Shown here piece after piece: positions 15,725-55,515 of a stretch of DNA of 55,515 nt. The DNA is from Acidobacteriota bacterium (GTDB taxonomy: Bacteria > Zixibacteria > MSB-5A5 > GN15 > FEB-12). Numbering within the stretch: position 1 is the stretch's first letter; each line of letters starts with the position of its first letter. The notes below the pieces were generated by a model. It was not told the origin of the DNA. It saw only the letters and a program-made list of their open reading frames with translations, and did not search any database. The stretch spans positions 1 to 55,515 of the forward strand of contig DATKXK010000004.1 of the NCBI GenBank assembly GCA_035529075.1. Direction: 5' to 3'. The position numbers and the translations under genes were made by a program.

Positions 15725-15735
15725 GGGGATGAGCC

Positions 15736-39134: not shown

Positions 39135-39463
39135 GGTGGCCCATCCGCTTGCGGTGGGTTTCTCTCATAAAAACCGGCTTTCGCCGGTTTCCCAATTTGG
39201 CACCGGGGGGCGGATTTGCCGCAGGTCCTGAGCGGGCCGAAGGATCGCAGATGCTGAGCGCAGCGAAGTAAACCTCCGACAACCACCTCGCAGGTGCTTC
39301 GGGTTATGAGCTTGCTCAGTTGTCCGAACAACAGAAAACACCAGACACTAAGAGGCAATAATAGCAACAACTTAACTTGAGCCTTTTGTCTGGTGTTTTC
39401 TCTTATTATCTGTTGTTTTGGCTAATTATGTTAGAAAAATGTTAGAAAGAGGTGTATGTCAAA
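39135..39463 (-). repeat. Array unit A: initiator tRNA 3' half, long hairpin and GTTAGAA boxes
   Basis: Order left to right: dispersed palindrome copy 2 (39135-39164); terminator hairpin AAACCGGC/GCCGGTTT (39171-39190), acting on the minus strand; tRNA 3' half (39199-39310) whose anticodon loop reads CTCATAACCCGAAG on the minus strand, as in tRNA-fMet. The T-arm is interrupted by two CTGAGCG...CGAAG palindromes (about 39220-39270). Next is a hairpin (39327-39417) with perfect outer 9 bp and inner 13 bp stems, then GTTAGAA at 39430 and 39441, then a conserved GGTGTATGTCAAA. As the leftmost copy it should be the original tRNA end. Confidence 0.7.
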
Positions 39464-39695: not shown

Positions 39696-40169
39696 ATGAG
39701 CGGTAGTGATGCAAAACAGGATTGCCTTAAGTTAATGGAAGCAACTGATATTATGTACTTGTCAACTATCGGAGAAGACGGTTTCCCTTACATAAGAGGC
39801 GTTATGAATCTGAGAAATAGCAAGAATTACCCCGACTTGGTCGAAATATTCAACCGACATGGCAATGACTTTCAAGTGTACATTTCGACTAGAACTTCCT
39901 CCAACAAGATCAAACAAATCGCAGCTGATAATGCAGTCAGTATTTACTATTGCGACCCTGAAAAGCACCAGGGTTTAATGTTGGCAGGTCAAGCAGAAAT
40001 TGTCTCAGATTCGAAAATGAAGCATAGGCTATGGCAGGATGATTGGGGAACATGTTTCCCTGATGGCAAGAACGATCTCGACTATTCGATCATTCGTATC
40101 AGACCCGCATTTGCACAAGGTTGGTGGGAGTCTGCAACCTTCAGATTCGAATTGGCTGGAAGAATATGA
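39696..40169 (+). CDS. Pyridoxamine 5'-phosphate oxidase-like FMN-binding protein
   Basis: 157 residues, ATG 39696. The split-barrel pattern of the PNPOx-like superfamily is visible: CLKLMEATDIMYLSTIGEDG, PYIRGVMNLRN, VYISTRTSSNKIKQIAADNAVSIYYCDPE and a final IIRIRPAFAQGW. Members of this general-stress subgroup bind flavin and reduce or bind small molecules. Its stop overlaps the start of the MarR gene (ATGA), so the products are made together. It is the first cargo gene of the array, in DNA clearly lower in GC than the left part of the window. Confidence 0.85.
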   Translation: MSGSDAKQDCLKLMEATDIMYLSTIGEDGFPYIRGVMNLRNSKNYPDLVEIFNRHGNDFQVYISTRTSSNKIKQIAADNAVSIYYCDPEKHQGLMLAGQAEIVSDSKMKHRLWQDDWGTCFPDGKNDLDYSIIRIRPAFAQGWWESATFRFELAGRI

Positions 40170-40609
40170 AGAGGCAACCTGAAGGCGGATTTCTGATAGG
40201 CAAGATACATCGACTGTCACACAGGATACTCACAAGGAAACTCAAAGACTATCAAATCAATCTTATCAATCCAGCTCAGGGCCGAATAATGTTTGTGGTG
40301 TGGCGGAAAGATGGTCTTTCAATTAGCGACCTTGCCAGAGAGACATCACTTGGCAAATCAACTTTAACAAGCATGCTCGACCGTCTGGAGAAAGCAGGTC
40401 ATCTAAAACGCGTTCCTTCGCAGGATGATCGGCGAAAACTGTTAATCAGGCGCACGAGGAAAGACAGGGCGGCCGAGGAAACATATAAGGCGGTATCAAA
40501 GAAAATGACTAAGCTATTCTATAGTGGTTTTTCGAAACACGAGATTGGTCAATTTGAAGGATACCTGCAAAAAATACTAGCCAATCTCACGGCCTCTGAC
40601 CTGCATTGA
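40166..40609 (+). CDS. MarR-family transcriptional regulator
   Basis: 147 residues starting at ATG 40166, which overlaps the previous stop by four bases. Winged-helix features: LINPAQGRIMFVVWRKDG, SISDLARETSLGKSTLTSMLD, RLEKAGHLKRVPSQDDRRKLLI, the last being the MarR wing. The C-terminal helix would form the dimer interface. MarR proteins respond to phenolics, oxidants or antibiotics; the linked FMN protein and thiazoline-hydrolase-like enzyme suggest a detoxification operon. Confidence 0.9.
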   Translation: MKRQPEGGFLIGKIHRLSHRILTRKLKDYQINLINPAQGRIMFVVWRKDGLSISDLARETSLGKSTLTSMLDRLEKAGHLKRVPSQDDRRKLLIRRTRKDRAAEETYKAVSKKMTKLFYSGFSKHEIGQFEGYLQKILANLTASDLH

Positions 40610-40685
40610 AATGATGCTCTTACTGCTGCGCGAACAACAATGTGCCTGATGTCTTACCAAATGTAGATACAGAAAGGAATTGTTC

Positions 40686-41294
40686 ATGGGTAAACAAGAA
40701 TCTATCCCAAGAGTGAATCGCCGGAAATTCATCACTACAGTCATGCCTGCATGCGGTCTCTCATGCCTGGGTGTTGGGAATTTGGCTGGCATCTGTGGCA
40801 GCGCGAGTGCTGACCAGGAGGAACCCATGGTACACAAGTTTCAGAAGAACTGGTGCAAAACCCACGAGGAGGCGTTCGAGTGGCGGTTTGGATACTACAT
40901 TGAATACATGGAACAGTTTGCCAAGTATCTTGGCCGGGATGAGCTGGTCCAGATGATCAAACGGGCCGTTGACGATAGTCTTCCACCTGCAAAAGTTGGC
41001 GATCCTGATTTTTCCCTTAGGAGATGGATTCAGGGTGGTAATGATATGTACGCAAACATGATGACCTGGGAAGTCATTGAGCAAACGGATACTGTCTACG
41101 AAATGAGGGTCTCTGAGTGCCTGTGGTGTAAGATTTTCCAAAAACACAATGCTGCCGATATTGGTTATGCTTCAGTCTGCTACTCGGATTTTGCCTACGC
41201 TCGCTCGGTTCATCCGAAATTGAGTATGAAACACACCAAGACACTGATGAACGGAGACGGCTACTGCAACCATCGCTGGATCTTTGAGGGCTGA
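40686..41294 (+). CDS. L-2-amino-thiazoline-4-carboxylic acid hydrolase-like protein with Tat-like leader
   Basis: 202 residues from ATG 40686 (GAAAGGA upstream). The N-terminus NRRKFITTVMPACGLSCLG resembles a twin-arginine type signal. The C-terminal part shows the ATC-hydrolase family pattern: YEMRVSECLWCKIFQKHNAADIGYASVCYSDFAYARS and TKTLMNGDGYCNHRW. Named members open the thiazoline ring of a cysteine precursor, but most of the family is untested. Conserved cysteines (CLWCK, VCYSD, GYCNH) may be catalytic. Last gene of the first array segment. Confidence 0.72.
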   Translation: MGKQESIPRVNRRKFITTVMPACGLSCLGVGNLAGICGSASADQEEPMVHKFQKNWCKTHEEAFEWRFGYYIEYMEQFAKYLGRDELVQMIKRAVDDSLPPAKVGDPDFSLRRWIQGGNDMYANMMTWEVIEQTDTVYEMRVSECLWCKIFQKHNAADIGYASVCYSDFAYARSVHPKLSMKHTKTLMNGDGYCNHRWIFEG

Positions 41295-41390: not shown

Positions 41391-41552
41391 TCGGCTTATG
41401 AGCCTGTTCAATAGTCCGACCAACAGAAAGCACCAGACACTAACCTGCCATAATGGTAATAAGTTACGACAGACCAGGTGCCTGGTGTTTTTTCTTATTA
41501 TCTGTTGTTCCTGCTCGTTTTGTTAGAAAACTGTTAGAAAAGAGCTACTGTG
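41391..41552 (-). repeat. Array unit B: truncated tRNA remnant, long hairpin, GTTAGAA boxes
   Basis: Only the anticodon region of the tRNA half remains (CTCATAAGCCGA on the minus strand, 41391-41402); the T-arm and terminator are gone. The hairpin spans 41421-41507 and GTTAGAA boxes stand at 41522 and 41533. From the tRNA remnant to the boxes this copy differs from unit G by only about three bases in 145. Confidence 0.7.
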
Positions 41553-41640
41553 CATATGAACAAGAAACGGTGTTGTCTCGTCACTGATATTAGTAAACAT
41601 AAGTAATGATACATAAGCCTTGCTACCTGGGAGAGAGGCC

Positions 41641-43389
41641 GTGAAGAGCATCAATTCCATAACTGCCTGCCTGTTTATTGTTCAAAGCCAGTTGGTTGCA
41701 GGGGACGTATCACTTACGGGTAATTGTGAGACATTAAACGACGCTGAAAATACCGCTTCGAGTGGCCAGAGGCCTGGTTGTAACAACGAAAGTCTCGCTA
41801 ATGATTCACCGATAGACTACGAGATCTTTTATGGTCTAAACGAAAGTCACAGTAGAAACTGGGTGCAAACGAACGGCGACCGGGTCATTGGTATCACTTA
41901 CTTTCAGCAGTTCGAAGGCAGTTCTGATGAAGGGACTTTGATTTACAAGACGATCAATCTTGACGGTTCCGGAGATGTAGACTCAGTAACGACCGGCCAA
42001 CGCCTGGAGAAATCCGTCCTGCTGTATGATTCCTTGTTCTCCCCCCATATTTTTGTCGCCCGGTCGGATGATCTTGATCAAGTCATTGATCATCATTATA
42101 AGAACGATTTTGATAAGTGGCAAAGCGAGACAATTACGCATTTCAACAATCTGGGAGGAAGGTTCATATACGAACTTTCTGCAGACACAGGCCCCGATCA
42201 TTCATTTCACCTGTTGATTTTGAAAACACGTTCCGATATTGATTCGGATGATTATTGGAATGCTTGGATAAATTCATATTTGTACCATATGACAAATTCA
42301 AACGGTACCTGGCAAAGGCAGCTCATTCATAATTATGATATGGCCTATACCTATGATCACTATATCAAATCCTCCGGTCGTCAGGATATAAAAGTCGATA
42401 ACGACGGCTACGTACACGTGACTTTTTCGCAGCAGATAAATGCAAGCGACGATCCTTCCCGGTTGCTTTATGCAACGAACAAATCGGGAACCTGGGACAT
42501 AGAGGTGGCCTTGAATAATGATTACGGACCCAGAGATGATGCCGGATGGTTTCCTTCTTTATGCCTGGATAATGATGGTGTACCGCATATCTCTTGCATG
42601 TATGTTAATCGCGTTCATACGTATTCTGCTGTGTATTGTAAGCTTCTCTTGCTCAAGAGGCTGGGTAGCAACAACTGGCAGTGCGAGGTAATCGCGGAAC
42701 ACGATGATGGGTATTACGGGACTGATGGAAGGAACTTTACAGGTGCCTTATCTCATCTGGTTTTCGACGATGAAAACACACCTCATTTAGTCTTCTCGGA
42801 TATCGCGTCGTCGCACTGGGGCTATCAGCGCCTTAATGTGGGCAATATAAGGTATGGAGTTTTTAGGGATGGAGACTGGGAGATCAAAACGATTTATCGT
42901 CAGCCATTACCCACCGGCTTTCTAAGCGCCACTGAGATGCACGGGATGTGCTTGGTTGTGTCAGAGTTGACTGATACAATACGTGTTATAGGGGAGGAAT
43001 TGGAGATTACTTCGGCCTTTCAATATACTTCCAATCTGCTCGATTTTTCATGGGCCAAAGTTCCCGCTGACAATACAAATGTTCGCGGGGAGTATGGGAA
43101 TTCAGTACCTGATCAATACTATTTGTCCCAGAACTACCCGAATCCGTTCAACCCGGGAACCTGGATAGAGTTCTATTTGCCCCGCCGGTCCAACGTGGCT
43201 ATTTCGATTTACAACCTGCTTGGCCAACAGATCAATACTCTGGTTAGCCGGGAACTGACGGCCGGTAGCCATTCCGTCTATTGGAACGGTGCTGATTGCC
43301 ACGGCAGCACGGTGTCAAGCGGCATTTATTTCTATCGCTTCCGGTCCGACGATTATGTCGAGACGAAAAAAATGCTGCTACTGAAGTAG
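41641..43389 (+). CDS. Secreted propeller-like protein with type IX sorting domain
   Basis: 582 residues from GTG 41641, which gives a signal peptide (MKSINSITACLFIVQSQLVAG) and has GGGAGAGAGG upstream; the frame is open to a TTG earlier. The body contains blade-like repeats such as IKVDNDGYVHVTFSQQ and LCLDNDGVPHISCMYVN, typical of sialidase-like or BNR-type beta propellers. The last 90 residues carry the sorting domain (YLSQNYPNPFNPGTWIEFYL to KMLLLK). Substrate unknown. Codon choice is more AT-rich than in the left-hand secreted proteins. Confidence 0.8.
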   Translation: MKSINSITACLFIVQSQLVAGDVSLTGNCETLNDAENTASSGQRPGCNNESLANDSPIDYEIFYGLNESHSRNWVQTNGDRVIGITYFQQFEGSSDEGTLIYKTINLDGSGDVDSVTTGQRLEKSVLLYDSLFSPHIFVARSDDLDQVIDHHYKNDFDKWQSETITHFNNLGGRFIYELSADTGPDHSFHLLILKTRSDIDSDDYWNAWINSYLYHMTNSNGTWQRQLIHNYDMAYTYDHYIKSSGRQDIKVDNDGYVHVTFSQQINASDDPSRLLYATNKSGTWDIEVALNNDYGPRDDAGWFPSLCLDNDGVPHISCMYVNRVHTYSAVYCKLLLLKRLGSNNWQCEVIAEHDDGYYGTDGRNFTGALSHLVFDDENTPHLVFSDIASSHWGYQRLNVGNIRYGVFRDGDWEIKTIYRQPLPTGFLSATEMHGMCLVVSELTDTIRVIGEELEITSAFQYTSNLLDFSWAKVPADNTNVRGEYGNSVPDQYYLSQNYPNPFNPGTWIEFYLPRRSNVAISIYNLLGQQINTLVSRELTAGSHSVYWNGADCHGSTVSSGIYFYRFRSDDYVETKKMLLLK

Positions 43390-43400
43390 TCCGGGTTGTG

Positions 43401-43520
43401 ACCCAGCCGGATGCTGTTCCACTATGTGTCAGCGATGCTATTCCGGATTTGTTCGACAGTTACTCAACTGTCGCCCCTGGGGAGGGACCTTACACTAACC
43501 GGCAGTGGGCCACATTGTGA
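43401..43520 (+). pseudogene. Fragment of an EreA/ChaN-like hydrolase gene
   Basis: About 40 codons directly behind the sorting-domain stop read QPDAVPLCVSDAIPDLFDSY and then STVAPGEGPYTNRQWATL. This aligns with residues 33-70 of the intact gene at 48612 (DAVPLDPIDAILGLFDSY, SIVALGEGPHANWQGATF). No start, no rest of the gene. It is a relic of a second copy. Confidence 0.75.
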
Positions 43521-43583
43521 CTATTGGACGTTTCCCGTTTCAAGAATGTTAAAGGCAATCTTACAGCTGGTCCCTATTGACGT

Positions 43584-46073
43584 CTACGGTTTCAGTATCG
43601 CCGTTCCCCAGGTAGCGGGTGACTCAACCGCCGCGTCCGCAGGCCAGTAACCATAGATTGTCGGGACCCACTCGGCTCGGAATGCCAGACCGATCGCGTC
43701 TCCCACCGCGACCCCGATCTTCGTCAGCGGTATCCGGATCTCAAAGGTATCGAGTGGCGGCGGGTCCGGGACCATTGGGAAATTCGGTATTCCCTCCCAG
43801 TCGGGCTGAACAACGCTGCAGTCGTTATAGAGGTCGTAAGTACCGTGCGCTTCGCAATCTGACGCCGACACATGGAACCACCAATCGTCACTCATCCAAT
43901 GCTCTGTCTTGTCATTCCCCACATCGATCAGCATTTCGGGCAAACACAAGTTCTCTTCCTGCCGAAAGACATAGTGGTAAGCCGCAAGCAGATTAGTGCC
44001 ATCATGCTTGATCATGACCGTGACATCCACCCAGTTGTCGACAGTAAACTGCCTCAGGACGGCGTCACTCCATTCGCCGGGGTCGAGAGTGCCGTCCATT
44101 ACAACCGGTGCGCCGAACGGTATCTCAAGAACTGAGCCGAGCGGAGTTGGACACGCCGCCGGCAACGGATTAGGCGGTATGAACAGGTAGCCGATCAGGG
44201 CCGTCAGATCGCCAATATCGACAATGCCTTCCTCGTCGCCATCAATGTTCGCCTCTTTCTTGCATCCTGGAGCTTCGTTTGGCGGGATGAAGAGATAGCT
44301 GATCAAAGCCGTCAGATCGCCAATATCGACGATTCCTTCGGGGTCACCATCAATGTTCCCCCGGATGCCGACACAACAACAGGCGTCGCCAATGTCATCC
44401 CCGTCGGTATCGCTCTGGTCGGGATTGTAGTCGAGCGGGCAGTTATCGACGCCCTCTGGAACACCATCTCCATCCTGGTCAAGCGTAAGACCCTCCGTGA
44501 CGACCAGGAATTGATTCACATCAACATTCACCAGCACATCGGTCAGGCCGCTTGGCCACTCCACCAGGATCGAGTCGACGGCGGTCGCGTCACCAAGACC
44601 GAAATGCGCCTCGAGCGGAGGTTGCGCGTTAGTTCCTGTTTGGCTGACAATTTCTCGCATTTGCCAGACTGAACTTCCGCCGATATTCGCTTTTAGACGG
44701 ACTTTCGCACCAATGGCTGAGCGATTTGAAATAGTACCATAGGGTTTAATTGTAATCCAGCGGTTGAGATTACCGTTGTTGCGGTATAGTCTGTTTACCG
44801 CATATACGCTGTTATTGTTCCAACTGGGATCATACCGGCAAGTATAAAGATCAACGTCGCCGTCTCGATCATAATCACCCCAAACTGCGGACACTACAAT
44901 ATGAGTATCGGCCGCAATGATTCCCTCGGTTATCTTATTGAAGGTATGATCGCTAAGATTCTCAAAGAGATTCCCTTCCGAAAGTACGGGATAATCCCAA
45001 TTCATTCGCGTGATGAAAATATCCAGGTCACCATCATTATCATAATCACCCCAGATGCCCTGATACGCAAAACCATCACTCGATTGCAGGCCATGTCCTA
45101 CTACGCTTGTAAAAGTACCGTCGCCGTTGTTGCGATACAAGAATGGCTCGCCGTCTCTATTCGCCACAAATAGATCCTGATCACCGTCATTGTCGTAGTC
45201 TCCCCAACTGCTACAGAAGCAATAACCCGAGTCGCTGCCCAAAACACTCTCGGCCATCAAAGTAAAATTACCATTTCCATCGTTACGATACAAATCGTTG
45301 CCTTCCCGCTGAATGCTCGAAGTGAATAAATCCGGATCACGGTCATTGTCATAATCACACCAGGTAGCGCTGTAAGTATGCTTTGCATCGGTCACGATTT
45401 CTCCAGAGTCAACTTTAGTGAAGACGCCATTGTTATTGATATACAGGTAGTTGGGAAAGGGATCGTACCCCTGAACATTGTCGTCGGTCGAATTACCGAT
45501 AAACAAATCCAGATCTCCGTCGAGGTCAATATCAACCCAGTTCGGTGAGGTCGAGCCGGCGTTCTCACCGCTTATAACGTTCTCGGTGTCTATGACGAAG
45601 TTGCCGGAGCCATCGTTGATGTATAGGAAGTTCGGATCAGCCTTGAAATTCGCTAACAGCAAATCCAGACCGCCGTCACTATTGTAATCTGCCCAACTGG
45701 CGGCATAACACTCCAGGGCAGTTCCAACAACTTCCAGTTTGTCGACAACGGTAAAAGAACCATCACCGTTATTATGATAGAGATTGTGATAGGCCGGGGG
45801 CGGATCTTCCGAAACTGCCCAGTAATCGATATTCAGAAGATCGAGATAATTGTCCTGATCATAATCGACCCAGCATACGCCCCAGGTAGAAGCGTTGGTA
45901 TTTACATGCGGTCCTTCGGTGACTCTGGTGAAAGGGTCTGCTGTCAGCTTGGCATTGAGCACCGGGGTCACTGCCGCGCTGTCTGCCTGGCCGATCGCTT
46001 CGTGAATTGTCGCAGCCTGCAGATTTCCGCACACCGCTAGTGCCAGGATCGGCAGAAACCATCCAAGTCTCAT
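43584..46073 (-). CDS. Secreted FG-GAP/ASPIC protein with internal dockerin pair and C-terminal CBM9-like domain
   Basis: 829 residues from ATG 46073 (MRLGWFLPILALAVCGNLQA, signal peptide). FG-GAP/VCBS blades run from about 45 to 430 (VDYDQDNYLDLLNIDYW, WGDYDNDGDQDLFVANRDG). An ASPIC/UnbV domain follows (IGAKVRLKANIGG to ILVEWPSGLTDVLVNVD, about 450-535). Two dockerin-like repeats at about 570-640 carry VDIGDLTALISYLF and VDIGDLTALIGYLF. Unlike the other dockerin proteins here, a further domain of about 180 residues follows (VMDGTLDPGEWSDAVLRQF, FEIRIPLTKIGVAVGDAIGL), resembling family 9 carbohydrate-binding modules. It is the only minus-strand cargo gene in the array. Confidence 0.85.
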   Translation of the reverse strand: MRLGWFLPILALAVCGNLQAATIHEAIGQADSAAVTPVLNAKLTADPFTRVTEGPHVNTNASTWGVCWVDYDQDNYLDLLNIDYWAVSEDPPPAYHNLYHNNGDGSFTVVDKLEVVGTALECYAASWADYNSDGGLDLLLANFKADPNFLYINDGSGNFVIDTENVISGENAGSTSPNWVDIDLDGDLDLFIGNSTDDNVQGYDPFPNYLYINNNGVFTKVDSGEIVTDAKHTYSATWCDYDNDRDPDLFTSSIQREGNDLYRNDGNGNFTLMAESVLGSDSGYCFCSSWGDYDNDGDQDLFVANRDGEPFLYRNNGDGTFTSVVGHGLQSSDGFAYQGIWGDYDNDGDLDIFITRMNWDYPVLSEGNLFENLSDHTFNKITEGIIAADTHIVVSAVWGDYDRDGDVDLYTCRYDPSWNNNSVYAVNRLYRNNGNLNRWITIKPYGTISNRSAIGAKVRLKANIGGSSVWQMREIVSQTGTNAQPPLEAHFGLGDATAVDSILVEWPSGLTDVLVNVDVNQFLVVTEGLTLDQDGDGVPEGVDNCPLDYNPDQSDTDGDDIGDACCCVGIRGNIDGDPEGIVDIGDLTALISYLFIPPNEAPGCKKEANIDGDEEGIVDIGDLTALIGYLFIPPNPLPAACPTPLGSVLEIPFGAPVVMDGTLDPGEWSDAVLRQFTVDNWVDVTVMIKHDGTNLLAAYHYVFRQEENLCLPEMLIDVGNDKTEHWMSDDWWFHVSASDCEAHGTYDLYNDCSVVQPDWEGIPNFPMVPDPPPLDTFEIRIPLTKIGVAVGDAIGLAFRAEWVPTIYGYWPADAAVESPATWGTAILKP

Positions 46074-46176
46074 GATTACGGTCCCTTCTTTCTCGCGCAT
46101 CAGCATTCGATGACTTTTGTACTATGACGTTACGAAGGGGCGCCTCATAAAGTTTTTTCTTCAGGTTTTTTGACGG

Positions 46177-46510
46177 GGTGGCCCATCCGCTTACGGCGGG
46201 TGTCACGGACACAAAAAGGCCAGTTTATTAGATGGCCCTAAGATCTTGATAGCGGGGGGAGGATCTGCCGCAGGTCCTGAGCGCAGAGAAGGATCGCAGA
46301 TGCTGAGTGCAGCGAAGGAAACCCCTGACAACCACCTCGCAGGTGCTTCGGGGCATGAGCCTGTTCTATCGTCCGACCAACAGAAAGCACCAGACACTAA
46401 CCTGTAGTAATAGCAATTACTTACGGGAAACACAGTGTCTGGTGTTTTTCCCTTATTATCTCCTGTTTTGGCTAATTATGTTAGAAAAACGTTAGAAAGG
46501 GGTATATGTA
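46177..46510 (-). repeat. Array unit C: tRNA 3' half, long hairpin, GTTAGAA boxes
   Basis: Contains dispersed palindrome copy 3 (46177-46206), a terminator hairpin GGCC...GGCC followed by five T on the minus strand (46217-46238), and a tRNA half with anticodon loop CTCATGCCCC (46248-46359) again holding the CTGAGCG...CGAAG insert. The hairpin at 46377-46471 has an 11 bp perfect inner stem (CACCAGACACT/AGTGTCTGGTG). GTTAGAA boxes stand at 46480 and 46491. Its terminator differs in sequence from those of other units, as expected if each unit came with its own element. Confidence 0.7.
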
Positions 46511-46653: not shown

Positions 46654-48033
46654 ATGATGAGATTCGTTTTCGCACTCATCATTATATTTCCGGCTATCCC
46701 GATCCATGCAACAACAATCCATGTGCCGGCTGATTCTTCAGCCATCCAGGCCGGAATAAATGGCGCTACCGAGGGCGATACCGTTTTGGTGGCAGCCGGG
46801 ATTTACACCGGCGATGGCAACCGCGATATCGACTTTGGAGGCAAGAGCATCCTGCTCATGTCCGAAGAAGGACCAGACTTTACGACTATCGACTGCCAGG
46901 GCAGTGAACTGGATCAGCACCGAGCGTTTGATATTCATAATGGAGAAGACACAACAGCTATCATCGACGGTTTTACAATCACGGGGGCATATTGGGATGA
47001 TGGCACCTACACGGGAGGAGCCGCTGTTTTTCTTGATAGTGCCGGTATGGCGCTGCAAAACTGTATTATAACCGGGAATTCTCAATCCGGTCTGCTAATT
47101 CAAGACTGTGATACCATGCCGCTTCGCATAATGAACTGCATGTTTAAAGACAACGGTGTATTCGGTATTCAAGTGGAGGGTGCATCAGCCAAGATCGCCG
47201 GTTCGGTTATTGATGGGAATGGTTATATCGGTATCTTTGCCGCAGATTGGGGATGGGGAGCACATTCTCTAGAAATATCCGGGTGCGTCATAGTCAATAA
47301 CGGCAATGCTGGTCTTACTGTTATGTATCCGATGGAATTCCACGTTGAAAACAGCACTTTTTACAACAATCGTGACGGGATGTATTTCGAGTGGACGCCT
47401 CCCAAGAAAAGCCCGGAAGACTTAGTAGGAACATCTACCGTTTCCAACTGCCTGGCGGCCTATAATCTCAGGAATGGTTTTGAAAACGCTTTCGGCTATT
47501 CGGAATACGAGTTTCTCTGCAATAATTCGTACGGGAATAGTACACTCGACTGGGCCGGTTTGGACTACTACGATGGCGATGCATACGGCAACATTGTCGC
47601 CAATCCGGAGTTTTGTGATACGGCTTTGGGGAATCTTGGAGTTTCAGGTTCATCGCCGTGCGCACCGACTAACAACAATTGCGGAGTGCTTATCGGCGCC
47701 CTGGAAGCTGAGTGTGGTCTGGTAGATGTTGAAGAAGAAGAGGGTCCGCTACCATATACCTTTGAATTGAATCAAAACCACCCCAATCCATTCAATCCCA
47801 CAACTCTGATCGAATACTCGGTTCAAACCCTATCGCATGTCAGGATCTCTATTTTCAATGTCCTGGGTCAAAGGGTTAGATTGTTGGTAGATGAAGTGAA
47901 GCCGGCAGGATCATATAGGGTGAGTTGGAATGGCGAAGACGAGAATGGCCAGCAGGTTGCTGCCGATGTTTACCTATACCGTTTCCGGGCTGGGGATTTT
48001 GTCGAAACAAAGAAAATGTTGCTTTTGAAATAA
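46654..48033 (+). CDS. Secreted right-handed beta-helix protein with type IX sorting domain
   Basis: 459 residues, ATG 46654 after GGGAGGG. A signal peptide (MMRFVFALIIIFPAIPIHA) is followed by the DUF1565-type opening IHVPADSSAIQAGINGATEGDTVLVAAG. Parallel-helix repeats (IIDGFTITGA, LQNCIITGN, KIAGSVIDGNGYIGIF, LEISGCVIVNNGNAGL) follow, as in pectate lyases and NosD-like proteins. Residues 365-459 are the sorting domain (FELNQNHPNPFNPTTLIEY to KMLLLK). No pectate-lyase active site was identified. Probably a surface polysaccharide-binding or structural protein. Confidence 0.85.
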   Translation: MMRFVFALIIIFPAIPIHATTIHVPADSSAIQAGINGATEGDTVLVAAGIYTGDGNRDIDFGGKSILLMSEEGPDFTTIDCQGSELDQHRAFDIHNGEDTTAIIDGFTITGAYWDDGTYTGGAAVFLDSAGMALQNCIITGNSQSGLLIQDCDTMPLRIMNCMFKDNGVFGIQVEGASAKIAGSVIDGNGYIGIFAADWGWGAHSLEISGCVIVNNGNAGLTVMYPMEFHVENSTFYNNRDGMYFEWTPPKKSPEDLVGTSTVSNCLAAYNLRNGFENAFGYSEYEFLCNNSYGNSTLDWAGLDYYDGDAYGNIVANPEFCDTALGNLGVSGSSPCAPTNNNCGVLIGALEAECGLVDVEEEEGPLPYTFELNQNHPNPFNPTTLIEYSVQTLSHVRISIFNVLGQRVRLLVDEVKPAGSYRVSWNGEDENGQQVAADVYLYRFRAGDFVETKKMLLLK

Positions 48034-48157
48034 GAAGGTGTCGAGGAGACTGAGATGATGGACGGTGGGTCCGTCCTTCTCTTGTTTACTTGAAAAGACA
48101 AATATAATCTGTTGTTAGAACATCCCGTTTTCAAAGCAAATTCCACCCAAAAACAAA

Positions 48158-48345
48158 CTCCCGAAGCTTTTGAACTTCAGGAGCTTGAACTCGGCAGCGG
48201 GGGGCGGATTTGCCGCAGGTCCTGAGCGCAGAGAAGGATCGCAGATGCTGAGCGCAGCGAAGTAAACCCCTGACCTTCGGGGCATGAGCCTGCGAGCTCG
48301 TCCGAACAGCGGAAACTGCCAGATACTAACCGGCAGTGGTGCCGT
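48158..48345 (-). repeat. Array unit D: tRNA 3' half and left hairpin arm only
   Basis: A terminator hairpin CTCCCGAAG/CTTCAGGAG (48158-48183) and a tRNA half (48192-48289) carry the palindromic insert. It lacks the encoded CCA, and the loop reads CTCATGCCCC. The left arm of the long hairpin (AACAGCGGAAACTGCCAG, about 48304-48321) is present, but the right arm and GTTAGAA boxes are not next to it; they appear 1.4 kb further right, beyond the EreA/ChaN-like gene. Confidence 0.65.
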
Positions 48346-48611
48346 AAACTACATGAAACCACGTACCCGGCGCTTCGTATTGCTGACCGTGATCTTGGCG
48401 AACTCTGTCAGGAGAAGGTTTACAGGGTTGTATGAGAACCGCGAAACATGGATCGGACCACCGTGCCAGGGAGTCGAAATTCTCCAAACAGTCTTGAGAA
48501 ATTCTTGTCTAAAGAACGACCCCGCCCGTCATTAGTAGTCACAAGGACACAAGCTGGTCTATACACATGAGGACATATCTCAACCCAGGTTAATCAAAGG
48601 AGAAAGACCAA

Positions 48612-49685
48612 ATGCCCCGTGATGCTTTCAAATGTGCTTCAGCTCTGGTTCTAATCGTCATGTTGTCGGTTTCAGTTGTGGCCGGGCAGGCTGCAACTGA
48701 AATGCAACAGGATGCCGTTCCGTTAGACCCCATCGACGCTATTCTGGGTTTGTTCGACAGTTACTCAATTGTTGCGCTTGGGGAGGGACCTCACGCGAAT
48801 TGGCAGGGGGCCACGTTTCGACTGGAGCTTATCAGGCATCCTCGTTTTTCTGAGAAGGTCAATGACATTGTCGTTGAGTTCGGAACCGGCCGCTATCAGG
48901 ACATAATGGATCGTTATGTTTCCGGGGAAACGGTTCCGATGGACAGTGTCCGGCTTTGCTGGAGAGAGACAACCCAACCGGTCATCTGGGATGCGCCCGT
49001 CTATGCTGAGTTTTTCGCAGCCGTACGCGATCTGAATCAATCTCTTGCGCCTGGGAAGCGGCTGCGTGTGCTGCTGGCTGACCCTCCGATAGACTGGAGC
49101 CGGATAAGAACACGAGAAGAATTAGAGCAGTGGTATTATGATCACATGCCGAGCAGGGCATGGGGCAAGGTTAATGCACGAGATGGCTATGCAGTTGATG
49201 TCGTGGAACGCGAAGTTCTGGCAAAAAGCAGAAAGGCGCTGGCCATTGCCGGTGACGCGCATTTTAACCGGGCGACTTTCAACCCGGAAATGCCGGGGTT
49301 TATGGGGGCCTATTTCACGGGGAATTTCGTTCACCAGTTGGAGCGCATGCATCCCGGATCGGTCGTCAGTATCACTTCCATAATAAACGTTGATAGCCTC
49401 GAATTCAGACACCCCGAAGTATTGTCATGGCCGACACCCTCTCTGGTCCATCTGAAAAGCACAAAGATCGGGAGTCTGAAAACATTCGGCCCGCGGGCGC
49501 TGGAAGAAACACACGATGCGGTATTGTGGATGGGGCCAAGTAGTTTGCTTAGTTATTCCCGCCTGATGCCGGAAGTTGTTGAGAACGAGGAGTATTATCT
49601 GGAAGCGTTAAGAAGAGACAGTCTGTGGATGAAACAGTACCAGGATGTGCTGCGTGGACTCCGGTCAGAATATCTTGGCGATTAA
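48612..49685 (+). CDS. Secreted EreA/ChaN-like hydrolase
   Basis: 357 residues, start ATG 48612 with AAAGGAGAAAG upstream. A signal peptide (residues 1-27) precedes a domain with IVALGEGPHANWQGATFRLEL and VNDIVVEFGTGRYQDIMDRYV. The GE..H and VEFG pattern is shared by the erythromycin esterase/ChaN/TraB fold, where the Glu and His residues are catalytic or bind metal. A later LAIAGDAHFNRATF supplies another conserved H. True EreA enzymes inactivate macrolides in the cytoplasm; an exported relative more likely acts on another ester or on heme. A broken second copy lies at 43401. Confidence 0.68.
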   Translation: MPRDAFKCASALVLIVMLSVSVVAGQAATEMQQDAVPLDPIDAILGLFDSYSIVALGEGPHANWQGATFRLELIRHPRFSEKVNDIVVEFGTGRYQDIMDRYVSGETVPMDSVRLCWRETTQPVIWDAPVYAEFFAAVRDLNQSLAPGKRLRVLLADPPIDWSRIRTREELEQWYYDHMPSRAWGKVNARDGYAVDVVEREVLAKSRKALAIAGDAHFNRATFNPEMPGFMGAYFTGNFVHQLERMHPGSVVSITSIINVDSLEFRHPEVLSWPTPSLVHLKSTKIGSLKTFGPRALEETHDAVLWMGPSSLLSYSRLMPEVVENEEYYLEALRRDSLWMKQYQDVLRGLRSEYLGD

Positions 49686-49800
49686 GCTGGCGCTGACATT
49701 AGAGGTCATGCATCCTCTAACGCCAGATTGGCACATTCTAAATCCTCTGGCCTGCTGTTTTGGCTGATTCTGTTAGAAAAATGTTAGAAAGAGGTGTTAT
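49686..49800 (-). repeat. Array unit E: detached right half of a unit
   Basis: After a strong hairpin TTAGAGG/CCTCTAA with outer CTGGCG/CGCCAG (49687-49724) comes CTGGCCTGCTGTT (about 49748-49760), which can pair with the left arm in unit D (AACAGC and GCCAG). GTTAGAA boxes follow at 49772 and 49783 with the conserved GAGGTGT. There is no tRNA half. D and E are best read as one unit split apart. Confidence 0.6.
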
Positions 49801-49989: not shown

Positions 49990-51153
49990 ATGGTGTCTCT
50001 ACGATCAATAATCGTCCCAGCAATAGTGATTATCATAGTGTCAGCAACGGGCCAGGCTCAGGAAACAATCAATGATCTGAGATTCGTGAAAAGTGATCAG
50101 ACTTTTTCTGCCATGGCCAGCACTGGAGTATTTTTGGAGGATATTGATGCCGACAGGGATTTTGATGCAGTAATTTCAAATTTCGGCCAGTCGTTAGTCC
50201 TGAAAAATGATGGGGCTGGTCGATTCGTAGAAGTTCAGCAAGTTGAATCGTTACATGGTGTTTTGGTCGGTGATATTAATATGGATGGAAAGGACGACTT
50301 GCTTTCTTACCCAAGCACGATGATATACCTGAATAATGGCCGCGGGGAATTCAAAAACATTGATAATGCTGCTGTAAGGAAGAGCGAACAGCTAGATTAT
50401 TGTGCTCATTTGGTTGATCTTGATAATGATGACGATCTTGATGTCGTAACGGAGAGTGTAACCGGGCAGCTAATCAGTTGGATAAATGACGGGAGTGGTC
50501 AGTTCAAAGAAGGTATGTTCAAGCTTCCTGCAAATGCGTCGTTTTGCGATCTAAATAACGATAGGGCGATTGATTGCATTGTTCGGGAGAGCAAAAAGCA
50601 GTTGGTTAAGACAGGCGGCGTAGAAAAGTGGTCGGATCGAGAGGGCGATGTTGGATATCGATTATATTTAAATGATGGCAATGGAAGGTTTGAAGACTTT
50701 TCGTTCGTTTCGGTCCCCGAACTGGTTCGAAGTGGAAATCGATGGACTTGGTTTTTTGATTTTGATAATGACGGAGACATGGATATTGTATTCTCCGATC
50801 GGGAAAGCCATTTAGCCCGTATATTGGAAAATGACGGAAAAGGTAACCTGAGGATCGGACAGAGTTTGACCACGGTAACATACGGGAAAATCGGCACCGG
50901 AGATTTGAATAATGATGAATACATAGACCTCGTCATTACTAATAGGAACGAGCCGGCTCAGATTTGGATAAATGATCGCAAGGGCAGGTTTTATGATTCC
51001 GGAATTAGATTGGAGGGAAACTCCCTGAGCCAAGGTTGCACAATTAAAGATATCGACAATGATGGCGATCAGGATATTTTCATGATATTCTACCAAAGAG
51101 GCAGTGCAAGTATCTGGTATAATCAGATTGTGAAGGATGCTTACGAGTATTAA
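49990..51153 (+). CDS. Secreted FG-GAP/VCBS repeat protein
   Basis: 387 residues, ATG 49990 behind ACAGGAGGAA. A signal peptide (MVSLRSIIVPAIVIIIVSATGQA) precedes about seven FG-GAP-type blades with calcium loops: EDIDADRDFDAVI, GDINMDGKDDLL, VDLDNDDDLDVV, FDFDNDGDMDIVF, GDLNNDEYIDLVI, KDIDNDGDQDIFM. The length fits one closed seven-bladed propeller. No sorting domain or dockerin at the end, unlike its relatives in the window. Markedly AT-rich coding sequence. Confidence 0.85.
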   Translation: MVSLRSIIVPAIVIIIVSATGQAQETINDLRFVKSDQTFSAMASTGVFLEDIDADRDFDAVISNFGQSLVLKNDGAGRFVEVQQVESLHGVLVGDINMDGKDDLLSYPSTMIYLNNGRGEFKNIDNAAVRKSEQLDYCAHLVDLDNDDDLDVVTESVTGQLISWINDGSGQFKEGMFKLPANASFCDLNNDRAIDCIVRESKKQLVKTGGVEKWSDREGDVGYRLYLNDGNGRFEDFSFVSVPELVRSGNRWTWFFDFDNDGDMDIVFSDRESHLARILENDGKGNLRIGQSLTTVTYGKIGTGDLNNDEYIDLVITNRNEPAQIWINDRKGRFYDSGIRLEGNSLSQGCTIKDIDNDGDQDIFMIFYQRGSASIWYNQIVKDAYEY

Positions 51154-51265: not shown

Positions 51266-51570
51266 CAAAAAAAATCCCCGAAGCCTCTCGGCTTCAGGGA
51301 CTTAAATTTGGTAGCGGGGGGAGGATTTGCCGCAGGTCCTGAGCGAGCCGAAGGATCGAAGATGCTGAGCAAAGCGAAGTAAACCGCCGACAACCACCTG
51401 ACAGGTGCTTCGGGTTATGAGCCTGTTCAATAGTCCAAACAGTGGAAAGCACCAGACACTAACAGGTAATAATAGCAATAACTTAGCTTGAGCCTGTTGT
51501 CTGGTGTTTCTTTTTGTTTTAGCCTGTCTTGGCTAGTTTTGTTAGAGAACTGTTAGAAAACCAAGTATGT
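51266..51570 (-). repeat. Array unit F: tRNA 3' half, long hairpin, GTTAGAA boxes
   Basis: An excellent minus-strand terminator TCCCTGAAGCC/GGCTTCGGGGA with eight T (51266-51300) is followed by a tRNA half (51309-51421) whose acceptor end CCCCGCTACCA is intact and whose T-arm carries the CTGAGCG...CGAAG insert. The hairpin spans 51435-51532 (CCAAACAG/CTGTCTTGG outside, CACCAGACA/TGTCTGGTG inside, ACAGG/CCTGT next). Boxes: GTTAGAG at 51541 and GTTAGAA at 51552. Confidence 0.7.
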
Positions 51571-51592: not shown

Positions 51593-51742
51593 ATGATATC
51601 GTTGATATCAAAAATTCCCAGCGGAGGTGTCGAAATCGCAAAACAGATATTGATTCGTGATGATCCTGAAAACGTTCAGGACTGGATTGAAAGGGAATGT
51701 CATAAATCGAAAACATCATCGTTACAAAGGGAGTACATGTGA
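51593..51742 (+). CDS. Small ORF overlapping the acyltransferase start
   Basis: A 49-codon frame (MISLISKIPSGGVEIAKQ and on) starting at ATG 51593 with GGTGGGA upstream and ending ATGTGA, where the GTG of the next gene is embedded. The overlap suggests translational coupling. Against it: a TTGACA at about 51573 would place transcription start near or after the ATG. No similarity recognised. Confidence 0.4.
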   Translation: MISLISKIPSGGVEIAKQILIRDDPENVQDWIERECHKSKTSSLQREYM

Positions 51743-52884
51743 CAGAACAATACATCATTCGAGAAGGTGTTTTCCAACATATTACGTTAGAAGGAACAAG
51801 CTACGAAATTGGCCGTAAGCAGGCAGAGATTCTGAAATCAACGAATGAAAGCTCGCTGAACAGCTTCACATCAGAAGAAGTTCATCCCAAAAAGTACGGA
51901 TTTGCTACATTCAAGCAAGTTCAAAATGAATACGAAGTAGTTTGTCCAGGTATCAATGATGAAATTCAAGGATTTGCTGACGAGTTGGGATCGCCAATTG
52001 AAAAGATCATGTTCTATGACGCAAGTTATCTTGTGCAGGCTAATTGCTCGCATATGGTTGTATTGCCGTCTCTCACCCTCAATAAACATTTACTGGTAGG
52101 CCGAAGCTATGAACAGATTCCAGAGGAAGAAGATTTGCGTTTATGCACGACCCAGGTTAAGGGAAAGGCCCGCCACATCGGTTTTTCAGTCTTCCTTTTT
52201 GGACGGCAGGAGGGCATGAATGAGTACGGATTGAGCCTTACTATGTCTGCCGGTATGGCAGCAGGATATCCAAGCGAATGGAACAAAAAGACGGGACTGG
52301 GTTATTGGGTAATTCAACGTGGAATTTTAGATAACTGCAGAGATGTAAAAGATGCCTTGGAAAAACTCCGAATGTGTCCCCCGACCTCAAATACCAATAT
52401 ATTATTAGCTGAGCGTAATGGCAAAGCCGCTTTAGTAGAAATCTACGCTGGAGAGATGCAAGTAAAGGAGATAAACGACGCCTCAGATTGGCCCTGTTTG
52501 GTATCTACTAATCACTTCACATTGCCTGGTATGGCTGAACGCAATCACCACCAGATCATTCTTGATACTTCTCCTCCGCGAGCCGAGGCTATTCGCTCTG
52601 GTATTGAAGGAGCTCAACCTTCAGTTACTCGTGAAACCCTGCGTGGAATACTGACCACAGAGATTCCAAATGGCTGTTTTGGCCCTTACTACTCTGACGG
52701 ATTTGGAACCCTATGGTCGATGATTTTCGATCTGACCGCTGGTGAAGTTGAGATTTGTTTTGGTGCACCTGGTTATAATCCTTGGCGGACATTTACGTTA
52801 GAAAATGTGGGTGAAGTAAGGGAGTATGAAGCGATATTCCCAGACAAACAAGGTTTGTTCAGTGATTCTGTGTCGCAAGGGTGA
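51739..52884 (+). CDS. C45-type acyltransferase/amide hydrolase (penicillin acyltransferase-like)
   Basis: 381 residues starting with GTG 51739, preceded by AAAGGGAG. Features of the C45 (acyl-CoA:6-aminopenicillanic acid acyltransferase-like) family are GTSYEIGRKQAEI near the N-terminus and the nucleophile region YLVQANCSHMVV (Cys near residue 97). GRSYEQ, GMNEYGLSLTMSAG and a late STNHFTLPGM with CFGPYYSDGFGTLWS follow. In the family an N-terminal nucleophile Cys is exposed by self-cleavage and cleaves linear amides. No signal peptide, so cytoplasmic. It is alone in its array segment, apart from a small coupled ORF. Confidence 0.8.
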   Translation: MTEQYIIREGVFQHITLEGTSYEIGRKQAEILKSTNESSLNSFTSEEVHPKKYGFATFKQVQNEYEVVCPGINDEIQGFADELGSPIEKIMFYDASYLVQANCSHMVVLPSLTLNKHLLVGRSYEQIPEEEDLRLCTTQVKGKARHIGFSVFLFGRQEGMNEYGLSLTMSAGMAAGYPSEWNKKTGLGYWVIQRGILDNCRDVKDALEKLRMCPPTSNTNILLAERNGKAALVEIYAGEMQVKEINDASDWPCLVSTNHFTLPGMAERNHHQIILDTSPPRAEAIRSGIEGAQPSVTRETLRGILTTEIPNGCFGPYYSDGFGTLWSMIFDLTAGEVEICFGAPGYNPWRTFTLENVGEVREYEAIFPDKQGLFSDSVSQG

Positions 52885-52921: not shown

Positions 52922-53147
52922 GAAACCGGCTTGCGCCAGTTTCATGATTTGGTAGCGGGGGCAGGATTTGAACCTGCGACCTTCGGCTTATGAGCCTGTT
53001 CAATAGTCCGACCAACAGAAAGCACCAGACACTAACCTGTTATAATGGTAATAAGTTACGACAGACTAGGTGCCTGGTGTTTTTTCTTATTATCTGTTGT
53101 TCCTGCTCGTTTTGTTAGAAAACTGTTAGAACGGGGTGTATGTCAAA
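52922..53147 (-). repeat. Array unit G: best-preserved tRNA-fMet 3' half, long hairpin, GTTAGAA boxes
   Basis: Terminator hairpin GAAACTGGC/GCCGGTTTC (52922-52943). The tRNA half (52950-52994) reads on the minus strand CTCATAAGCCGAAGG, the T-arm GCAGG-TTCAAAT-CCTGC, CCCCGCT, A, CCA; this copy has no palindromic insert. Hairpin 53013-53099; GTTAGAA at 53114 and 53125; conserved GGTGTATGTCAAA next. No 5' half of a tRNA is attached, so it cannot be a working tRNA gene. Confidence 0.75.
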
Positions 53148-53213: not shown

Positions 53214-53552
53214 ATGAATCAGATTAGAAAGAGTGAAGATACTCTGATCGAAATCGAATTTTCGAAGTTTGAAGCCGCTACTTTTATTTTCTTATTACAA
53301 CACTCGCCCTCCACAGGTTATAAAGTTGCCAAGGGCATAGGGACATCATATTCGAACGCATATAAGATCTTAAAATCTCTGGAGAAAAAAGGATATGTGT
53401 TGGCCGAGAAAGGGGATAATAATCGGTATCGTGCCATACCAATTGATGAAGTCCTGAATATACTGGAGAAGAAGTTTAACCAGCGTAAGAATAATTTGGC
53501 GGATGCAATTGCTGATTTGCCACTGATAGAAAACGATCAAAGGATATATTAA
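53214..53552 (+). CDS. TrmB-like winged-helix regulator
   Basis: 112 residues from ATG 53214. SKFEAATFIFLLQHSPSTGYKVAKGIGTSYSNAYKILKSLEKKGYVLAEKG is the DNA-binding domain of the TrmB/PadR-like group; RYRAIPIDEVLNILEKKFNQRKN begins the coiled dimer region. It lacks the sugar-binding domain of full TrmB. Located 135 bp upstream of a membrane protease gene which it may control. Weak ribosome site. Confidence 0.82.
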   Translation: MNQIRKSEDTLIEIEFSKFEAATFIFLLQHSPSTGYKVAKGIGTSYSNAYKILKSLEKKGYVLAEKGDNNRYRAIPIDEVLNILEKKFNQRKNNLADAIADLPLIENDQRIY

Positions 53553-53687
53553 TTGAAGACAGTTGAGCAAGTTTATGCCGAAGTATGAGTGACATCGGTT
53601 CACCTGAATACTAATTCGTTAAGAATCATGTGTACTGAACGATACTTGACTTAACAATCATTTACTTCTGAGAGGATAATACACATT

Positions 53688-54533
53688 ATGTCAGAAATCT
53701 CTGAAAAGAAGCACTCGATTGTGTCTTTTTTTGCATTGGCCTATCTGAGCACATGGGCATTCTGGATACCATTCGTGATCTTTGGCCCTTCCTCAACAGC
53801 CATCGCTTCAAACCCGGATTTGAGAGGCTCACCCTTTATGTTGTTGCAGGTTCTCGGCAACTTTGGACCTGCAATAGCTGCAGTTCTGCTTTGGATCTTC
53901 TCGGGGAAACGCACTGAACTCAGAGACGCATTTAGACGGTTACTCCCTCATCCCGCAAGTTTGATTTGGTATATTGTCGTTTTGCTTCTGCCTGTTGGAA
54001 TGCTACTCCCCGGACTTATTGTTTACGCGCTTCTCGGGGGAAATATTGCAGGCTTCAGCATCTTGGGTTTATTGCTACTATTCGTCTCTGCTATCTTTAT
54101 CAGCGGTTTAGGTGAAGAGATGGGATGGAGGGGGTATGCTCTGACAAGACTGCAGATGACCAAGAGTCCACTCATATCAAGCCTTATCGTCGGTGCCTTC
54201 TGGGGATTATGGCACTTACCAATAATCTGCTGGTACTCGCATCAAACCGGCTTGCTTTTCCTTGTTGAGTTCGGGCTATATGTGTTGGTCCTGACGGCCT
54301 TTTCTGTAATATTCACCTGGGTATATAACGCCACGGATAGGAGTTTATGGTTACTTGTACTAATGCACGCAGCGTTCACAACCAGTGGTAACACTATTGC
54401 AGCTTTCACACAACCTGTGGCGGGAGGTACTTGGGTGCCTTACATCGTGGGTGTGCTTTCAGCAGTTGTTGCAGCAGTTTTCGTCGTAGCTCTTAACCGA
54501 ACCCGGATGTGCTCCAGGCAATGCGCTGCATAA
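53688..54533 (+). CDS. CPBP-family intramembrane glutamic endopeptidase (CAAX protease-like)
   Basis: 281 residues with about seven to eight membrane helices. The catalytic motifs are clear: GLGEEMGWRGYAL near residue 145 (EE..xR), WGLWHLPI near 180 and LMHAAFTTSGN near 228. Bacterial CPBP proteases often serve bacteriocin immunity or maturation, and similar genes are frequent in mobile cassettes. No bacteriocin gene is recognised here. Paired with the TrmB-like regulator in the same segment. Confidence 0.9.
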   Translation: MSEISEKKHSIVSFFALAYLSTWAFWIPFVIFGPSSTAIASNPDLRGSPFMLLQVLGNFGPAIAAVLLWIFSGKRTELRDAFRRLLPHPASLIWYIVVLLLPVGMLLPGLIVYALLGGNIAGFSILGLLLLFVSAIFISGLGEEMGWRGYALTRLQMTKSPLISSLIVGAFWGLWHLPIICWYSHQTGLLFLVEFGLYVLVLTAFSVIFTWVYNATDRSLWLLVLMHAAFTTSGNTIAAFTQPVAGGTWVPYIVGVLSAVVAAVFVVALNRTRMCSRQCAA

Positions 54534-54643
54534 CTAGTCATTCAACTTGAGTAATCAATGCATAAGCTGCTTTTCTGTGGATGGGCAAACGCTCCCCTGC
54601 TTGTAGATACACCAGGCCTCCTTGGACAGATTGATCACATTAT

Positions 54644-55210
54644 ATGGGAAGACAAGGAGGTTTTTGTGGGGGTCGTAAGTGGAAAGTGGCATACAAGAAG
54701 TTAGTGTTGGAATACGATGATTTGATTGGAAGTGATGCAAAGTCATATCGTGATTTTGATGTTCCTATGTCAACATTTTATGAGTGGAAGAGATCGTTGA
54801 GGGAAGAAGGAGGGACAGTTGATACCGTACTAAATCAAGTTGTTGAAACGATCACTGAGCCTGGTGTATATGCTGCTTTCACAACCGATGCTTCGGTTGA
54901 TGTTGAGGATGAGTATGGTGATGCTCTACCATACCGGTTTGAGCTCTCGCAGAACTACCCCAACCCATTCAACCCGGCGACGACAATTGAGTACAGCTTG
55001 CGGAAACGAGGTCATGTCACGATCGACGTGTTCAATGTCCTCGGACAGAAAGTGCGGACATTGGTCAACAGAGAAGAGCCGGCTGGTTCCTACACTATCA
55101 CATGGAATGGAACCGATACGAACGGCAAGTCAGTGGCGACAGGTTTATACTTCTACCGATTCCAGGCCGGAGACCATGTCGAGACGAAGAAGATGCTTCT
55201 GTTGAAATAG
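54644..55210 (+). pseudogene. Chimeric remnant: HTH-like piece joined to a type IX sorting domain
   Basis: 188 codons from ATG 54644. The first 55 residues include YKKLVLEYDDLIGSDAKSYR and VPMSTFYEWKRSLREEGG, which looks like the helix-turn-helix of a transposase or integrase subunit. After a short linker (NQVVETITEPGVYAAFTTD) comes a complete sorting domain (FELSQNYPNPFNPATTIEYS to KMLLLK). There is no signal peptide, so the tail would have no use. It is probably the end of a secreted protein gene truncated and fused by chance to mobile-element DNA. Confidence 0.6.
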
Positions 55211-55263: not shown

Positions 55264-55375
55264 ATTATCCACCAGACTACTCTGAACTAATTCTGTTAGA
55301 AAGTCAATTATTCGTGGATATATGAACACCACAATAGGTCTGTAATCTATTGCGGTGTAATAATTTGGTAGCGGG
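55264..55375 (-). repeat. Array unit H: remnant right arm, terminator and start of a tRNA half, cut by an IS
   Basis: CTTATTATC... with a single GTTAGAA (55295-55301) is a reduced right arm. Then a minus-strand terminator CACC-CAATAG/CTATTG-GGTG (about 55327-55356) and the first bases of a tRNA half in plus orientation, AATTTGGTAGCGGG (55362-55375), as in units F and G. The match stops exactly where the IS end begins. The space between the right arm and the next terminator is almost empty, as if a cargo was lost. Confidence 0.6.
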
Positions 55376-55515
55376 TGACCTGCCCCCCATATTTCGTTCC
55401 AGTTTGAGAGTTATTATGTTGGACTGGATCGAGGAAGGAGGATCTAATGGGCAGGCAACGATTTACAGTAGAAAGTATCGTCCGCAAGCTTCGGGAAGCG
55501 GAAGTGGAGCTGTCA
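55376..55515 (+). mobile_element. IS3-family insertion sequence, left end (cut by window edge)
   Basis: TGACCTGCCCCCC at 55376 is typical of IS3-type (IS407-like) terminal repeats, and a transposase OrfA starts 71 bp inside. It is inserted in the acceptor-stem part of the last tRNA half. The right end, orfB and target duplication are outside the window. Confidence 0.7.
55447..55515 (+). CDS. IS3-family transposase OrfA, N-terminus (cut by window edge)
   Basis: ATG 55447 behind GGAAGGAGG gives MGRQRFTVESIVRKLREAEV and continues past the window end. RFT.E.I...LREAEV is the opening of the helix-turn-helix OrfA of IS3 elements. Confidence 0.8.
   Translation, partial: MGRQRFTVESIVRKLREAEVELS

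Follow-up and report, generated by a model that had tools for sequence, protein, structure and literature searches.

What is the short block of DNA that recurs beside half copies of a tRNA-fMet gene in a Zixibacteria genome, and why does it combine a long hairpin with a pair of GTTAGAA boxes? The window analysed here is the whole stretch of 55,515 nt, contig C4 of the source genome. The first-pass annotation had seen a candidate recombinase site: a folded structure comparable to the attC sites of integrons, with the boxes as arm-type binding sites for an integrase or an excision factor. Transcript termination had been named as another possibility.

Our answer differs in part. Quite probably, the block forms the left attachment end of integrative elements, all of one family, that integrate next to tRNA-fMet, and the window is a tandem array of their integrase-less derivatives; the boxes would be arm-type sites and the hairpin a rightward terminator. 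Judged by its sequence, the array looks like a stack of integrase-less integrative cassettes (CIME-like) at tRNA-fMet. In the open-access papers searched, these elements are not described for Zixibacteria.

A standard module beside tRNA halves

The units of the array are, from left to right:

39197..39311, minus strand: unit A, displaced tRNA-fMet 3′ half, interrupted by a REP-like sequence and with the att core CTTCGGGTTATGAGC as its end (from the sequence and from homology to the intact tRNA-Met at C12:14199-14275)
39327..39417, plus strand: unit A, hairpin (outer arms 39327-39335/39409-39417)
39339-39347/39387-39395, plus strand: unit A, main stem of the putative terminator, T-rich tail from 39396
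39430-39436 and 39441-39447, plus strand: unit A, twin GTTAGAA boxes, putative arm-type sites of the integrase
41391..41539 (homologous stretch 41398-41545), plus strand: unit B, left-end module, complete; no tRNA half on its left flank
46346..46497 (homologous stretch 46355-46503), plus strand: unit C, left-end module with core, hairpin and twin boxes
48275..48430, plus strand: unit D, decayed left module without hairpin or twin box; core and 5′ arm remain
49740..49789, plus strand: unit E, right part of the module with intact twin boxes (49772, 49783)
51408..51558 (homologous stretch 51417-51564), plus strand: unit F, left-end module, preceded by a box-less right end resembling an integrase stump and by a tRNA half
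52949..53131 (homologous stretch 52990-53137), plus strand: unit G, uninterrupted tRNA-fMet 3′ half and left-end module

Alignment of the units within the window bears out the earlier grouping: A, B, C, F and G are homologous and share hairpin and boxes in a module of 149–152 nt. The order is a 3′ half of tRNA-fMet on the minus strand, the core CTTCGGGTTATGAGCC, the hairpin with its roughly 90 nt and, finally, the two GTTAGAA boxes. In all units but D, the box starts are spaced by 11 bp; this spacing had been described correctly, but the first box of unit F reads GTTAGAG. Unit D consists of the left part alone, in decayed form, and unit E of the right part alone. Unit A is the leftmost copy, and a chromosomal-type tRNA terminator precedes its tRNA half.

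That the module has sharp edges is evident from units B and G. They are nearly identical over exactly 149 nt (B 41391-41539), with 93–100% identity per 15-nt window and a single window of 87%. The homology stops abruptly on both sides, on the right at the second box, and the sequence immediately outside is unrelated. Between the modules lie unrelated genes, mostly on the plus strand.

Against 200 dinucleotide shuffles, stability is far above expectation for the hairpins of A, C and F (z −4.2, −4.4 and −3.7, respectively) and modestly so for those of B and G (z −1.5 and −1.9), and unit D does not fold better than its shuffles. An Rfam scan yielded no match. ARAGORN found no intact tRNA in the window, which means that the tRNA pieces are halves only. 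Short REP-like sequences (..CCTGAGCG..GAAGGATCG..) break up the T loop of displaced halves, at an equivalent site in several units and in a relative (window 39197-39311, 46243-46360, 48195-48289 and 51312-51422; L020 2800-2880 and 4375-4440).

Cargo and right ends

Each module is followed by its cargo, and for some cassettes both attachment ends are present (left modules A, B, C, F and G; right ends at 48107-48215 and 55295-55376):

39696..41294, plus strand: cassette A cargo, a PNPOx-like protein (39696-40169), a MarR regulator (40121-40609) and an ATC-hydrolase-like protein (40680-41294)
41620..46106, mixed strands: cassette B cargo, a secreted sorting-tail protein (plus), an FG-GAP/ASPIC protein (minus) and a fragment (43404-43522) related to the cassette D gene
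46654..48033, plus strand: cassette C cargo, a beta-helix protein with FlgD-like tail
48107..48215, plus strand: cassette C right end, similar to an integrase 3′ stump, with one GTTAGAA (48114), a tRNA terminator and a tRNA 3′ end
48612..49685, plus strand: cassette D cargo, a 357-aa protein with no Pfam match
49990..51153, plus strand: cassette E cargo, an FG-GAP protein
51739..52884, plus strand: cassette F cargo, an acyl-CoA:6-APA acyltransferase-like protein
53214..55210, plus strand: cassette G cargo, a TrmB regulator, a CAAX protease and a sorting-tail protein
55295..55376, plus strand: cassette G right end, with GTTAGAA, a palindromic tRNA terminator and a tRNA 3′ end TTTGGTAGCGGG, cut by an IS

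The cassettes of the window thus hold one to three cargo genes each and measure about 1.5–5 kb. No integrase match was found on contig C4, and the cargo domains include neither integrase nor transfer genes. The right end of cassette C is 79% identical to the integrase 3′ end at C12:14120-14219; that of cassette G is homologous to right ends in two loci of relatives (L080, L092). The fragment in cassette B (43404-43522) is related to part of the cassette D gene (48705-48823), suggesting gene loss or exchange between cassettes.

The IS cuts the tRNA half at the end of the window's contig (55377-55515), and contig C12 begins with the same IS end in inverted orientation (L014 1-139). An IS copy, to judge from these ends, probably broke the assembly near the array. 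The array (C4) and the integrase gene with its tRNA (C12) lie on separate contigs of the source genome.

The integrase at the intact tRNA-fMet

The genome contains six tyrosine recombinase matches. One of them, on contig C12, reads toward an intact tRNA-Met(CAT), which it abuts; it is the only integrase of its family in the source genome. Its last codons include TTTTGTTAGAAAACTGTTAGAAAA, a 24-nt exact match to unit B. Relatives of this integrase, with proteins about 60–100% identical and an equal layout, occur in Zixibacteria and on one contig labelled Ignavibacterium. A phylum-wide protein search led to 15 integrase loci that were inspected, the source genome included: all 15 have the twin box or a close variant at the integrase 3′ end, and in 14 an intact tRNA-Met is predicted beside the gene.

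The boxes are here part of a coding sequence. Among nine integrase genes, pairs with the same residue use the identical codon in 96.2% of cases within the box, compared with 46.5% in codons 40–380, and none of 344 other windows of eight codons reaches the conservation of the box codons. The difference indicates selection on the DNA, not on the protein alone.

A structural model of the C12 integrase, of low overall confidence (mean pLDDT 62), predicts an N-terminal beta-beta-beta-alpha fold at residues 40–83, resembling an arm-binding domain, and a disordered C-terminal tail. The best fold matches of this model are the integrases of Tn1549 and lambda. IMG/VR contained neither a relative of the integrase nor the exact box pattern, and a phage origin was rejected on these grounds. 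An integrase relative in Omnitrophota carries, at its 3′ end, two repeats of another sequence spaced by about 11 bp (TGCTAACACTGTGCTAACA; L021 1350-1505), hinting at an equal layout with another box specificity.

Whole elements and matched boxes in relatives

A complete element can be read in one relative (G132; L017/L083/L084). A module at C13:153704 and an intact integrase gene at 179057-180340, next to the tRNA, bracket 26.7 kb, and twin boxes are found both in the left module and at the integrase end. The hairpin lies at the end far from the integrase. In between are genes for restriction-modification, Fic, ArdC and caspase-domain proteins, a serine recombinase, RuvC, a TraG/TrwB-like protein and Replic_Relax; the backbone genes are of mobilisation type, and several of them are shared with the element on C12. 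A CBASS-like pair, consisting of a SMODS-type nucleotidyltransferase and a Cap15 receptor, is also encoded by the C12 element (L014 878-2417).

Arrays and their target also occur together: one contig (L020/L080) holds three modules, a C-terminal remnant of an integrase and the intact tRNA-fMet. One element on it has GGTAGAA boxes at both ends, its neighbours have GTTAGAA. A further genome (G055) has GTTAGCA variants in its left modules and likewise in the right end on the tRNA side. With the copies at the integrase 3′ end, the constraint on the DNA and these matched ends, the early idea of the boxes as putative arm-type sites of the integrase has gained considerably. The right ends of cassettes in G070 retain about the last 38 integrase codons including the box pair, which suggests that cassettes arose by replacement of everything between the ends.

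The hairpin as a probable terminator

The first-pass annotation had held that the structure of the hairpin, not just its sequence, is selected. In 121 aligned copies, 34 of 38 pairs show double changes and the paired cells exceed shuffled and slid controls; being fitted to the covariance model, this alignment leans towards the model structure. Pairs 61-208, 68-189, 79-164 and 80-162, all in the middle and inner stems, lie above the 99.9th percentile of non-pairs, so that the compensating changes reported for the middle pairs are confirmed. The compensation reported for the outer arms was not: one of seven pairs is high, wobble and mismatch changes balance at 26:26, and the 98 sequences give it no support. 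Selection on structure is supported for the middle and inner stems, but not for the outer arms. The inner arm CACCAGACA, said to be conserved, is so in the window; in other families a different but pairing sequence takes its place, e.g., CGGGACAATACCG.

The way in which pairs decay is informative as to the strand. When changes are counted on a tree, Watson-Crick pairs of the main stem turn into G.T 63 times and into A.C 28 times (p 3e-4), versus 26:26 in the outer arms. G.T is tolerated as read from the plus strand, which points to a rightward transcript. A mutational cause was rejected, as C.G and A.T should then lose pairing symmetrically on both strands; the excess therefore points to selection on the plus strand, with the proviso that counts from related sequences are not independent.

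As is usual for an intrinsic terminator, the hairpin combines a stable stem with a T-rich stretch that follows it on the transcribed strand. At a threshold of six among nine positions, the 3′ side counts as T-rich in 61 of 112 cases and the 5′ side as A-rich in 32 of 112, and termination could be bidirectional. A scan with a simple terminator consensus picks out only some units, namely C and in part B, and overall it yields about as many calls as shuffled sequence would. In G070, G068 and G064, the 3′ arm has been swapped for a different GC-rich hairpin with a T run, while core and boxes are retained. The inner loop (AGCAA..ACTTA) is conserved, but lost in these terminator-replaced copies. In Tn916, a terminator at the end of the element was experimentally shown to be an insulator (PMC11658703). 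Of the functions first proposed, transcript termination fits best, and a terminator that insulates the cassette is the simplest reading of sequence and analogy.

A terminator could, of course, also serve the integrase itself, in the manner of lambda sib. In the excised circle, int would read across attP into the hairpin, which would end or destabilise the int mRNA; integration would separate the two, and the cassettes would simply have inherited this end. Across the joined ends the module indeed falls downstream of int, and its structure is read from the plus strand. Yet the integrase end already has a palindromic terminator at the tRNA, and cassettes devoid of int keep the hairpin or swap it for other terminators, which speaks for a function without int. 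Such a role is unlikely, although it retains a modest chance.

Distribution across Zixibacteria

As had been recommended, a covariance model was built (R1, made from eight units; its E-values are rough due to short calibration) and relatives were searched. It matches in 49 of 132 Zixibacteria genomes from many families. Fragmented, metagenome-derived genomes underlie most of the comparisons, and the sequences counted do not stand for independent events. Of 119 distinct copies from the phylum, 85 show the 11-bp spacing of the boxes, and 45–48 have a recognisable tRNA 3′ end upstream.

The hairpin had been linked to tRNA halves, and this link holds in part. Many copies have no full tRNA half, but most of those with the left end retained still have the short core ..CCTTCGGGTTATGAGCC, and the core ..CCTTCGGGTT is likewise retained in many copies without a full half. 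This is what one would expect of an element-borne core with a variable left neighbour. Insertion at secondary sites or later deletion are possible causes. At some tRNA-fMet loci of the family, neither an integrase end nor a module is found at the tRNA; occupancy is thus variable.

Are the cassettes still alive? Of the 45 units open to this test, only 13 have right-end boxes upstream, compared with one of 45 in the reverse-strand control, and many cassettes may therefore be immobile relics. In its extreme form, this would make the entire array static: it would have grown by duplication and by homologous recombination between tRNA halves, it would no longer move, and its conservation would reflect recent common descent. 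The decay of units D and E, the lack of intact boxes in most right ends and the single integrase of the C12 family in the source genome agree with this. It does not explain, however, why unrelated cargo lies between near-identical modules with homology stopping exactly at the second box, nor the compensatory changes, the matched box variants and the spread over 49 genomes of many families. We give static relics a slim chance.

Comparison with known systems

CIMEs related to ICESt1 of Streptococcus have lost their integration genes but kept their attachment ends, and they accumulate in tandem where the target gene has its 3′ end (PMC5704250). The array has the loss of integration genes and, in some cassettes, the retained ends in common with them, here together with putative arm-type tyrosine integrases; tandem stacking at the target gene can be seen on one contig in L020/L080, and in the source genome array and target lie on separate contigs. 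It differs by many small cassettes, by a standard left module of 150 nt that brings its own terminator, by phylum-wide occurrence and by a mobility that is putative.

According to PMC3146451, ssrA islands of Dehalococcoides are arranged in tandem, carry varied cargo and are flanked by copies of the 3′ end of an RNA gene; an integration module is present in some of them only. The likeness lies in the tandem islands, the varied cargo and the RNA-gene repeats as bounds. In contrast, their recombinase is a serine recombinase and their target is tmRNA, and the abstract and section considered describe no module of terminator and twin box.

With Tn916 and Tn1549 the elements share an integrase composed of arm-binding (here predicted), core-binding and catalytic domains, Tn1549 Int being the best fold match, and with Tn916 also an insulating terminator near one end (PMC11658703). 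Unlike these transposons, they insert specifically at a tRNA gene, and the cassettes lack an integrase. What sets the arrays apart from the known kinds is the small size of the cassettes, a standard left module that includes a terminator, and the spread across a phylum.

The resemblance to integrons is the most tempting one, since in both, gene cassettes form arrays and a conserved hairpin adjoins the recombination core of every cassette. A hairpin acting as a folded single-stranded recombination substrate as in attC, with the boxes as accessories, would moreover account for the covariation that conserves the structure and for the common orientation of the cassettes. Yet homology and tRNA identity end in the anticodon-stem core of the tRNA, which places the strand exchange there, outside the hairpin. 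An unrelated terminator can replace the 3′ arm, and the wobble asymmetry is restricted to the T-tailed stem; attC sites are described as having no T-rich region and as not being terminators (PMC8876359). Nor is the C12 integrase an IntI: this protein, the only one of the six tyrosine recombinase matches run against the IntI models, scores 67.5–70.0 bits with TIGR02249, far below the cut-off of 265, and its predicted N-terminal domain is arm-binding-like. With an integrase of this kind and a core outside the hairpin, the arrays are not integrons, and the attC-like site of the first-pass annotation has become very unlikely. A riboswitch-like leader RNA regulating the cargo genes in cis, for which the conserved inner loop (AGCAA..ACTTA) and the covarying inner stem could be quoted, is hardly credible, as the cargo is unrelated among cassettes, the terminator-replaced copies lack the loop, and Rfam offers no match.

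A plausible mechanism

The preferred reading, left attachment ends of integrative elements and their integrase-less derivatives, can be put together as follows. The sequences argue for a module of about 150 nt per unit, made of tRNA-derived core, hairpin and twin GTTAGAA. As the twin box also occurs in the 3′ coding end of the tyrosine recombinase, integrase-bearing elements have a box pair at both ends, and cassettes retain the left module and, in some cases, also the 3′ stump of int as right end. The integrase would bind the paired boxes as arm-type sites with its N-terminal domain, and its catalytic part would exchange strands in the anticodon-stem core. A related integrase would act on the cassettes in trans, and the cassettes would be mobile by this route. 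The hairpin would terminate rightward transcription and so insulate the cassette from that of its left neighbour or of the host.

Other features of the window

Three further observations concern the remainder of the window. At 14750-17301, a multihaem cytochrome gene lies next to a weak match to an MtrB/PioB-like porin; the two may form a pair for extracellular electron transfer. At 34783-36911, about thirteen tandem repeats of 147 nt, some of them 159 nt apart, lie within an 869-aa minus-strand ORF. Finally, there are two pairs of large paralogs, the two genes of each pair being neighbours (1069-4575/5254-8769 and 18807-21107/21338-23683), parts of which are up to 97% identical.

What the arrays may mean

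Taken further, the findings would describe an integron-like platform for gene capture in Zixibacteria: tRNA-fMet as dock, and integrase-less cassettes with an end built from core, terminator and twin box, bringing their own insulation; arm-type integrases, either resident or visiting, would insert and exchange them in trans. This extension is tentative, and we consider it possible rather than probable.

More generally, the array suggests that integron-resembling arrays can arise from an ordinary tRNA-targeting integrase system that loses int but retains two short ends, of which one is concealed in the coding end of int. The matched box variants offer a clean natural test of arm-site specificity. 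The combination of model R1 and twin box, in turn, is a signature by which a reservoir of cassettes can be searched for in a poorly studied phylum.
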